Positions 34,363 to 36,858 of a stretch of 64,000 nt of DNA are shown one piece after another; within the stretch, counting starts at the first letter, position 1, and each line of letters begins with the position of its first letter. Below the pieces are notes generated by a model that saw only the letters and a list, made by a program, of their open reading frames with translations, had not been told where the DNA came from and searched no databases. The position numbers were made by a program, and so were the translations under genes. The stretch covers positions 1-64,000 of the forward strand of contig JAFTYV010000032.1 in the NCBI GenBank assembly GCA_017461225.1, written 5' to 3'. This DNA comes from Candidatus Methanomethylophilaceae archaeon (GTDB lineage: Archaea; Thermoplasmatota; Thermoplasmata; Methanomassiliicoccales; Methanomethylophilaceae).

Positions 34363-34908
34363 ATGACCCTGGAAGCGGTGATGACCGCACGCGGATCCGA
34401 ACACCTCGACACCGTCCTGGAACTCTACAGGGGATCGTTCCCGGAGATGGAGCGCATGTCGGAGGACACCCTCCTGGACCTCGCCGAGACGGACGGGGTG
34501 GAGTTCACATCGTACCTCGGTGACGGTACCCTTAGGGGGATGACGTACACCATAGAAGGGCCCGGGATCCTGTACCTGGTATACCTCGCCGTGGACCCGG
34601 GATCGAGGTCCATGGGTCACGGATCCGCCATACTGTCGTCGCTGCGCGGAAGGTACCCGGACAGCGTCATCGTACTGAACGTCGAACCGCTGGATCCGGG
34701 ATCCGAGAACGTAGGACAGCGTATCCGCAGGATGGACTTCTACATAGGGAACGGTTTCCACGACACCGGATACGTCCTGGGTGACGACGCCCAGGAGTTC
34801 ACGGTGGTCGCCTCGGGGGAGGGTTTCTCCCCCGATGCGTACCTGGATGTTGTCGGCAGGCTCATGCCGGAGTTCGGTCCGGCATGGATACGCCCCGCCG
34901 GAGAATGA
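34363..34908 (+). CDS. GNAT-family N-acetyltransferase
   Basis: A 181-residue acyl-CoA-dependent acetyltransferase. The acetyl-CoA pyrophosphate loop reads VDPGSRSMGHGSAIL (about 77-91), preceded by the beta-4 strand LYLVYLAV and followed by MDFYIGNGFHDTGYVL, the usual beta-6/7 region. The substrate cannot be inferred. An in-frame ATG six codons later is possible. It is convergent with the dehydratase small-subunit gene, four bases away. Confidence 0.78.
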   Translation: MTLEAVMTARGSEHLDTVLELYRGSFPEMERMSEDTLLDLAETDGVEFTSYLGDGTLRGMTYTIEGPGILYLVYLAVDPGSRSMGHGSAILSSLRGRYPDSVIVLNVEPLDPGSENVGQRIRRMDFYIGNGFHDTGYVLGDDAQEFTVVASGEGFSPDAYLDVVGRLMPEFGPAWIRPAGE

Positions 34909-34912
34909 TGGG

Positions 34913-35686
34913 TCAGCCGAGGAGGGTCCCGAGCACCCTGCCGGTGCCCTTGACGGTGTCCCTGTCCGAGACCGCGTCGACGGGGACCCACTCGAACCCC
35001 TCGTTCTCGTCGTTGAGGACGGGTTCCGCTCCGGAGACCCTGTACAGGAACGGGAACACCTTCCACAGGGTCGTCCCCTCCCTCACGTAGACGGGGTCCA
35101 TGGTCCCGTCGGGGGAACCGACCTCTATGCCCGTCTCCTCCATGATCTCCCTGCGGGATGCGTCGACGGGTGCCTCGCCGTCCTCGATCTTCCCCGAGAC
35201 GAGGGACCATACGCCGGGGAACGACCTGGATGTCGCGGGGCGGCTGAGCATCAGGACGCGGCCGTTGTCCACCAATGCGGATGAGACCGCCTCGCGGAGC
35301 TCCACGCCCTCCACCTCGACGGTGCCGGTGTCCGCATCCACGGACACGATGTCCCCATCCTCGAAGACGTCCACGGTCGGGATGAGGTCGACCATCGGGA
35401 TCGACGATATCACCGCACCAGTGGCCACGATGGTCTCCGCGGACTCGTTTATGACCGCCACGGGCTGCCTCCCGTGGACCATCAGGTCGTACATGACGAA
35501 GGAACCGACGGTGCTGCCCTTGCCCTTGGGGAACACCAGCACCTTTCCGGCTACGTTGCCGCCGTTCCCGACGCGTATCTCACCGGTGGAACCGTCCACA
35601 CCGCCGAGGAAGCTGAGGGGTTCGTCGAGCTTCACGACCTCTCCCCTCGCACTGCCGGGCGATATGCAGCGTCCGTTGAGTATCAC
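34913..35686 (-). CDS. Phosphomevalonate dehydratase small subunit fused to a Nudix hydrolase domain
   Basis: A 257-residue fusion. Residues 1-130 are the swivel (DUF126, aconitase-X small) domain: MILNGRCISPGSARGEV, FPKGKGSTVGSF (about 52-63) and SIPMVDLIP. Residues 132-257 are a Nudix domain with a perfect Nudix box from Gly165 to Ile187 (pattern GX5EX7REUXEEXGU; REIMEETGI visible). It starts with GTG inside the stop of the catalytic subunit (GTGA). The dehydratase makes trans-anhydromevalonate 5-phosphate in the archaeal mevalonate route. Known small subunits are about 130 residues, so the Nudix part is an addition. What it hydrolyses, a side product, a nucleotide or an isoprenoid diphosphate, is open. 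Confidence 0.82.
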   Translation of the reverse strand: MILNGRCISPGSARGEVVKLDEPLSFLGGVDGSTGEIRVGNGGNVAGKVLVFPKGKGSTVGSFVMYDLMVHGRQPVAVINESAETIVATGAVISSIPMVDLIPTVDVFEDGDIVSVDADTGTVEVEGVELREAVSSALVDNGRVLMLSRPATSRSFPGVWSLVSGKIEDGEAPVDASRREIMEETGIEVGSPDGTMDPVYVREGTTLWKVFPFLYRVSGAEPVLNDENEGFEWVPVDAVSDRDTVKGTGRVLGTLLG

Positions 35687-36858
35687 ATGACCACCTCCAT
35701 GAGCTTGGCGATGTCCCTGCACATGGCCTTCTGCGAGCACAGGGTGGGGAGGTAGTTGCCGGCCTTGGCGGAATTGGTGCCGGTCCTCTCGAAGGTGCCC
35801 TCGATGGGTGCCACGACCATGCAGGTGTCCGCGAGGACGGGTCCGAACTCCTCCATGATCCTGACGTCCTCGGGGCACTGGTCCCTGACCTCCGCGGATG
35901 TGCAGAACCAGATCTCCACATCCCTGTTCACCTTCCTCTTGCCCTTGAGGAACGATGCGATCTGGTGCATCTCCTTGACGGTGAGATGGGGGCACCCAAT
36001 CGCTATGAGCTGGACGTCGTCCGTCCTGTTCAGCTTGTCGTAGGCCGCCTCGAGCTCCGCGGGACCTATGTGGATCGTCTCCAGTTCCGACACGTCGTGA
36101 CTCCCGGCCTCGGGGGTCACGCCCTCGGCGTGGTAGAGTGCGACGGAACCGGATGCGGCCATCGCCGCGGAGAGGGTCTTTGCCTCCTCCACCTCCGGGG
36201 ATATGCCCCTGAAGTAGGGCACACCGCCGCCTATCGCCATCCCGACCGCCTGGCCGAGGAGGGAGTACGAGAACACGGAACCGTCTATCTCGGCATCGAT
36301 TACCACGGTCGGCCTCCTGTTCTCATCCAGATGGAGGCCGTAGTTGGCGGTCTTCCCGAGGATCGCGGCCGCCAGGGCACCGGGTCCACCCTCCCTGTTG
36401 GTCCTGGCCCCGATGTAGGAGTTGACGAACGACAGGGCGGACGACTCCGCCCATGCAACATGGTCCCCGAAGGAGGGGACGTTGGGCCCGATGTACGGTG
36501 TGCAGGAACAGGTGGTCCTGATCCCCATGCGGCCGTACAGGTCAATGATCCTGAGCTGCTTCTCGGCGAACTCCTCGGGGATGTGCATCTCCCTCCAACG
36601 GGTCCTGTCCATCCCCACGGGGTTGAGCGTGGACGGCACCGTGACCGTGGCGCCTCCCGCCACCATGTCCTCCAGATACTTCAGGCCCCCGTCGCCGATC
36701 GTCTTGTACGATGCGCCCGACAGGTGGGCGGATGTGATGTCTATCAGGTCCTCCGCACCGTATATCTTCCCGAGTGCGGTGACCAGTTCCATCGCCTTCT
36801 GTCTGCCCTCGCCCTCCTCACCGTGGAGGATGGCCTCTTCTGATCTGGTAAGGTCCAT
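35683..36858 (-). CDS. Phosphomevalonate dehydratase large subunit (aconitase X catalytic)
   Basis: A 391-residue iron-sulphur dehydratase of the archaeal mevalonate pathway. Aconitase-X features: LTRSEEAILHGEEGEG at the start, TTCSCTPYIG (about 133-142) with cluster cysteines, SYIGARTNREGG (about 166), and further cysteines in AIGCPHLT (about 290) and WFCTSAEVRDQC. It makes anhydromevalonate phosphate for archaeal lipid synthesis. It overlaps the small subunit by four bases. A TATA-like TTTCTATATCG about 25 bases upstream suggests a leaderless transcript. Confidence 0.9.
   Translation of the reverse strand: MDLTRSEEAILHGEEGEGRQKAMELVTALGKIYGAEDLIDITSAHLSGASYKTIGDGGLKYLEDMVAGGATVTVPSTLNPVGMDRTRWREMHIPEEFAEKQLRIIDLYGRMGIRTTCSCTPYIGPNVPSFGDHVAWAESSALSFVNSYIGARTNREGGPGALAAAILGKTANYGLHLDENRRPTVVIDAEIDGSVFSYSLLGQAVGMAIGGGVPYFRGISPEVEEAKTLSAAMAASGSVALYHAEGVTPEAGSHDVSELETIHIGPAELEAAYDKLNRTDDVQLIAIGCPHLTVKEMHQIASFLKGKRKVNRDVEIWFCTSAEVRDQCPEDVRIMEEFGPVLADTCMVVAPIEGTFERTGTNSAKAGNYLPTLCSQKAMCRDIAKLMEVVM

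Follow-up and report, generated by a model that had tools for sequence, protein, structure and literature searches.

Phosphomevalonate dehydratase (PMDh) is the key enzyme, discovered recently, in the synthesis of archaeal lipid precursors. In the two-subunit archaeal PMDh (AcnX type IIb), as in Aeropyrum pernix (Ape_2087.1/Ape_2089) and Thermococcus kodakarensis (7cnr/7cns), the genes for the large and the small subunit lie side by side, and the small subunit, where known, is a separate protein of about 130 residues. The T. kodakarensis aconitase X, of which TK1248 is the small subunit, is treated as a phosphomevalonate dehydratase in a later paper, and 7CNS is a structure with mevalonate 5-phosphate (PMC10040528). 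In the window, a stretch of 64,000 nucleotides from a Candidatus Methanomethylophilaceae archaeon (contig JAFTYV010000032.1), the two subunit genes are also neighbors, and the swivel fold and GSTVG loop of the small subunit are kept, but a Nudix domain of about 130 residues is attached to the small subunit. In a literature search covering mainly papers open without subscription, no paper was found that connects Nudix proteins to aconitase X or to the mevalonate pathway of archaea; the architecture may be recorded in domain databases. The PMDh paper PMC10040528 mentions neither Methanomassiliicoccales nor gene fusion. The features of the locus are as follows.

34913..35686, minus strand: fusion gene for the PMDh small subunit and a Nudix hydrolase, 257 aa, GTG start (translation, Pfam, relatives)
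35309..35686, minus strand: swivel (small subunit) domain, residues 1-126 (PF01989; TK1248/7cnr by sequence and fold)
35504..35518, minus strand: GSTVG motif, swivel residues 57-61, invariant in 77/77 fused homologues
34916..35302, minus strand: Nudix hydrolase domain, residues 129-257 (PF00293; fold close to MutT/RppH/NudI)
35126..35194, minus strand: Nudix box G165-I187, with metal-binding E180, E183 and E184 conserved in 75-76/77
35683..36858, minus strand: PMDh large subunit, the aconitase X catalytic chain (PF04412, E 3.5e-146)
35694..35698, minus strand: GGAGG, 7 nt ahead of the GTG and likely the fusion gene's ribosome-binding site (read from sequence)

The fusion gene and its small-subunit half

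The reading frame at 34913..35686 on the minus strand consists of 257 codons from GTG to stop, and no stop was found near residue 130. The chain matched the AcnX swivel family PF01989 at residues 24-99 (E 6e-26, 90.6 bits, cut-off 27) and the NUDIX family PF00293 at residues 131-243 (E 8e-17, 61.9 bits, cut-off 21.1). A first-pass annotation made from the letters, which named no strand, had described a swivel domain running into a Nudix domain in one frame, with a complete Nudix box at G165-I187. The translation and the two Pfam families bear out the first point, and the box was found exactly there, its letters G-KIEDG-E-APVDASR-REIMEETGI being an exact fit to GX5EX7REUXEEXGU. The first 4 nt of the fusion gene are shared with the end of the large-subunit gene. 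There is no stop at the domain junction. A second GGAGG is poorly spaced there, with just 2 nt between it and GTG128, which makes it unlikely that the Nudix domain is translated separately from this codon. An AlphaFold2 model of the fusion built with 49 homologues had a mean pLDDT of 95.5 and a pTM of 0.86, and a disordered linker was absent. Adjoining the fusion gene on the plus strand, at 34363..34908, is a 181-residue frame which looked by eye like a GNAT acetyltransferase and had no match in Pfam or NCBIfam.

Among solved structures, T. kodakarensis TK1248 (7cnr) was the best relative for residues 3-125, with an E value of 6e-30 and an end-to-end alignment. In a Foldseek comparison, the swivel half of the predicted fold matched the TkPMDh small subunit with a target TM of 0.89-0.91. 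The top model match was NF003046 (named ‘DUF126 domain-containing protein’), which gave 132.3 bits over residues 3-126, below its 163-bit cut-off. This shortfall weakens the case for an equivalog; membership in the PMDh small-subunit family is supported by Pfam, by the fold and by the gene pair.

The genome of the window organism contains one UbiD-family gene, a candidate anhydromevalonate phosphate decarboxylase, together with adjoining genes for archaeal isopentenyl phosphate kinase (IPK) and type II IPP isomerase (IDI-2), and UbiX is also present. In five relatives (G238, G451, G457, G421 and G151) the UbiD gene is directly upstream of the large subunit, and in another (G166) IPK and IDI-2 are downstream of the PMDh genes on the same contig. 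Because of these genes in the genome and the pathway neighbors in relatives, we read the enzyme as PMDh and not as hydroxyproline dehydratase. For the latter identity the large subunit reached only 259 bits against a 700-bit cut-off. The translationally coupled operon would thus yield a PMDh whose small subunit bears a C-terminal Nudix hydrolase, and the swivel with the aconitase X large subunit would convert (R)-mevalonate 5-phosphate into trans-anhydromevalonate 5-phosphate, as homology and the pathway neighbors in relatives suggest. The sequences show one conserved chain with intact motifs and separable halves, and we infer for it both a dehydratase and a diphosphate-hydrolase activity.

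In two families (f35 and f43), unlike the rest of the phylum, the aconitase X frames reach about 550-630 residues, which would accommodate both subunits in one chain; the Nudix orthologue is absent from these genomes.

Spread and age of the fusion

A match to the fusion chain was found in 140 of 147 genomes of the order Methanomassiliicoccales, covering 30/30 genera, nearly always at full length and free of internal stops, with single-contig genomes included. When only the good genomes of the order were counted, 73 of 74 carried the fusion. The named relatives with the fusion belong to Methanomethylophilaceae and to other Methanomassiliicoccales, and eight further families of the class carry it as well (f7, f10, f11, f13, f15, f17, f20 and one genome of f21). 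The search for the same domain pair in other archaeal genomes, which the first-pass annotation had proposed, was thus positive across the order and in these eight families. In most other lineages of the phylum the swivel ends near residue 126-135, and more distant relatives have a free subunit of about 130 residues, often plus a free Nudix orthologue; the earlier statement that the small subunit is normally a free protein of this size agrees with what is seen in these lineages. One search was also run beyond Methanomassiliicoccales, where the matches, archaeal and bacterial, covered the Nudix domain only and the four archaeal ones read were ordinary free Nudix proteins.

Two observations had been named in advance as damaging to the fusion, namely an assembly artefact and relatives with two separate genes. 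Neither holds, since the chain is no assembly artefact and relatives in the order and in much of the class carry it fused. An assembly or frameshift artefact could be argued from one genome (G426) in which the frame is broken near residue 160, but almost every genome of the order, and several other families too, carry the chain at full length and free of stops. Since it recurs in independent assemblies, single contigs included, an artefact can practically be dismissed. The incomplete matches examined were located at contig ends, apart from one frame break (G036). In G426 (L149, 6664..7451) the fusion is split into two overlapping frames, with the remaining Nudix part in the next frame, which may be a sequencing error or recent decay. 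In another genome (G095, L009) the fusion frame extends to 390 residues, past the Nudix domain, by either a further domain or a lost stop.

In the swivel tree, whose root is unresolved, a 99/99 branch sets all the fused proteins apart, and no free swivels but two (G179 and G185, family f42) group with them. The free swivels of f12, f16, f19 and G457 were on the opposite side of this branch. The gene order in G179 and G185 is large subunit, swivel, one other gene and Nudix, all on the same strand. This tree and this gene order are compatible with a single fusion of near neighbors, or with a subsequent separation in f42. The tree of the Nudix domain was less clear than that of the swivel; it was too short and too badly rooted to separate one fusion from several. 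On the sequences compared, the fusion is real and old; a single origin in an ancestor of the class is probable, and the fusion would hold both activities in a fixed ratio and in one place.

The Nudix domain and natural dissection of the two halves

Among the 77 fused homologues, which come from many families, R149, G165, E168, E183, E184, R202 and E227 hardly vary. Sequence change is quicker in the Nudix domain than in the swivel, with identities within the genus of 57% and 80%, respectively. The Nudix domain of the window organism's family has diverged and forms a long branch, with LNxEN in place of the DWEHTEY stretch of other families.

The structures nearest to the Nudix half were MutT, RppH, NudI and Ap4A hydrolases, Foldseek matched its predicted fold to Nudix hydrolases, and no equivalog cut-off was reached for the Nudix domain. 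The fold and the full Nudix box are common to MutT-like Nudix hydrolases (3grn of Methanosarcina mazei, BdRppH 3ees and NudI 6dt3), and the EH-EY-WV stretch that follows the box in 3grn, a MutT-related protein, is also present in the fused Nudix domain. However, identity to 3grn, 3ees and 6dt3 is only 22-25%, and the fusion to a PMDh subunit, the invariant R202 and the WE(H/N) stretch set the fused domain apart as its own subfamily. The motif of CoA-hydrolase-type Nudix proteins was looked for by eye and was absent.

Type I IPP isomerase belongs to the same superfamily and also has a tie to isoprenoid precursor metabolism, and IPP isomerase models and chains gave weak hits. The isomerase, however, has a catalytic cysteine, whereas the fused Nudix domain has none. 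The genome also has IDI-2 beside IPK, the type I isomerase model TIGR02150 had no match in this genome, and a separate IDI-1 gene is present in three genomes without IDI-2. Because the catalytic cysteine is missing and another gene supplies the isomerase, there is next to no likelihood that the domain is a type I IPP isomerase, and the first-pass annotation was right to keep the two apart, given a Nudix domain lacking the cysteine and an IDI-2 elsewhere in the genome. The genomes with IDI-1 and a missing IDI-2 (G184, G238 and G398; L274-L276) are all from genus g33 of family f7, an apparent replacement in one genus.

Several genomes separate the two halves of the fusion. In five genomes of family f7 the large subunit and the fusion gene are on different contigs, and no second swivel was found beside the large subunit in these five. 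Genome G238 (L148/L240, L241) contains two fusion copies with reciprocal decay. The copy beside the large subunit and UbiD has kept its swivel, while a catalytic glutamate of its Nudix domain is gone (EE to EA) and so is the WEH stretch; the other copy has lost most of its swivel and has an intact Nudix domain. In G150 and G227 the large subunit is absent and a degenerate swivel with an intact Nudix domain remains, and IPK and UbiX are still present. Selection therefore keeps both halves separately, and the Nudix domain even without PMDh. Since the copies of G238 split the functions and G150 and G227 keep the Nudix domain without PMDh, the domain is, as far as these sequences indicate, more than an accessory of PMDh and has its own job. 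We regard this natural dissection as the strongest evidence that the Nudix domain is an enzyme with such a job.

Alternatively, the Nudix domain could serve PMDh chiefly as a structural or regulatory module that responds to a diphosphate (IPP, GGPP or ADP) in feedback control instead of acting as an enzyme. A constant linker length, the high-confidence two-domain model and a partner that is an early pathway enzyme would suit such a module. This role is nevertheless quite improbable, given that the catalytic glutamates are nearly invariant, that the Nudix domain is intact where PMDh is gone, and that G238 tolerates its loss where swivel and large subunit are intact.

Candidate substrates and meaning of the fusion

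With a profile of the fused Nudix domains, free orthologues were detected in further families of the phylum; they measure about 130-180 residues and have E values of 1e-29 to 1e-50. The gene upstream of these free orthologues encodes a 595-residue PIN/ATPase/KH protein (f23, f46) or PurQ (f34), as named by eye from the sequences. At ten loci (L190-L193, L195, L197, L200, L201, L205 and L207) the free Nudix gene immediately follows the gene for this PIN/ATPase/KH protein (about 595 residues), and the two mostly overlap by 4 nt. The convergent genes 3' of the fusion in the order, IleRS and FEN1 (named by eye), are uninformative on the substrate. Outside the order, 34 genomes had both the Nudix domain and the two-subunit PMDh, 24 had PMDh only, 8 had Nudix only and 61 had neither, an odds ratio of about 11 that is inflated by shared ancestry. 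With the single-chain aconitase X, a Nudix orthologue was present in only 1 of 35.

Our best explanation of the whole, to which we give about even confidence, is a PMDh small subunit carrying a separate, MutT-like housekeeping hydrolase. The Nudix domain would ride on the complex as an apparently catalytically intact enzyme of its own. Its probable substrate is a nucleoside di- or triphosphate or an NDP-X compound, cleaved in a housekeeping role outside the steps of the mevalonate pathway, as suggested by the nearest structures and the operons of the free orthologues. Because some relatives have lost PMDh but kept the Nudix domain, and because free orthologues are found in PurQ or PIN/KH-ATPase operons, its job may lie outside the pathway. 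For the substrate, a nucleotide-type diphosphate, proposed from resemblance only, stands at roughly even chances and is favored over an isoprenoid diphosphate, which is distinctly less probable. The class-wide retention, the co-occurrence with the two-subunit PMDh and the Nudix gene two genes after the swivel in G179 and G185 are hints of a link with the pathway. The first-pass annotation had seen in the fusion a possible control or repair step tied to this pathway, which stays a conjecture.

Under the isoprenoid alternative, the Nudix domain would strip the outer phosphate of IPP or DMAPP to give IP or DMAP, either providing UbiX with DMAP for the prenyl-FMN on which the next enzyme depends, or as a brake opposite IPK. 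The fused enzyme stands one step before a prenyl-FMN decarboxylase (the UbiD-type anhydromevalonate phosphate decarboxylase), the Nudix domain co-occurs with the two-subunit PMDh, UbiX and UbiD are in the genome, and G150 and G227, which lost PMDh and kept the Nudix domain, retain IPK and UbiX. Some known UbiX enzymes use DMAP and others DMAPP (PMC6541611), and most readable UbiX sequences have F, Y or I at the position of F181 in the DMAP-using P. aeruginosa UbiX, that of the window organism having I. However, among the readable sequences this residue is F, Y or I with or without the Nudix domain, with one Q, and residue 181 is not the sole determinant of DMAP or DMAPP use (PMC6541611). Two families of the class (f8 and f9) lack a close Nudix orthologue yet possess IPK and UbiX, the free orthologues are away from isoprenoid genes except in G179 and G185, and the nearest structures are nucleotide hydrolases. 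Plant Nudix enzymes, e.g., tea NUDX1, also cut prenyl diphosphates (PMC9131077); NUDX1-type hydrolases have the same Nudix fold and, compared at the superfamily level, are only a precedent for isoprenoid diphosphates as substrates. Overall, removal of phosphate from IPP or DMAPP is possible but unlikely. That the domain makes dimethylallyl or isopentenyl monophosphate and thereby feeds the prenyl-FMN of the next enzyme, or meters flux against IPK, is rather improbable.

Between the favored nucleotide-type hydrolase and the isoprenoid alternative, the substrate question is directly testable, and the reciprocal copies of G238 and the Nudix-only genomes are nature’s own dissection of the fusion. 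The interest of the fusion is this sharp, testable question, and it is no new mechanism yet. If the isoprenoid alternative is true, the archaeal mevalonate pathway would have a built-in diphosphate hydrolase. An old fusion across an order of methanogens suggests that a diphosphate hydrolase belongs physically with PMDh.
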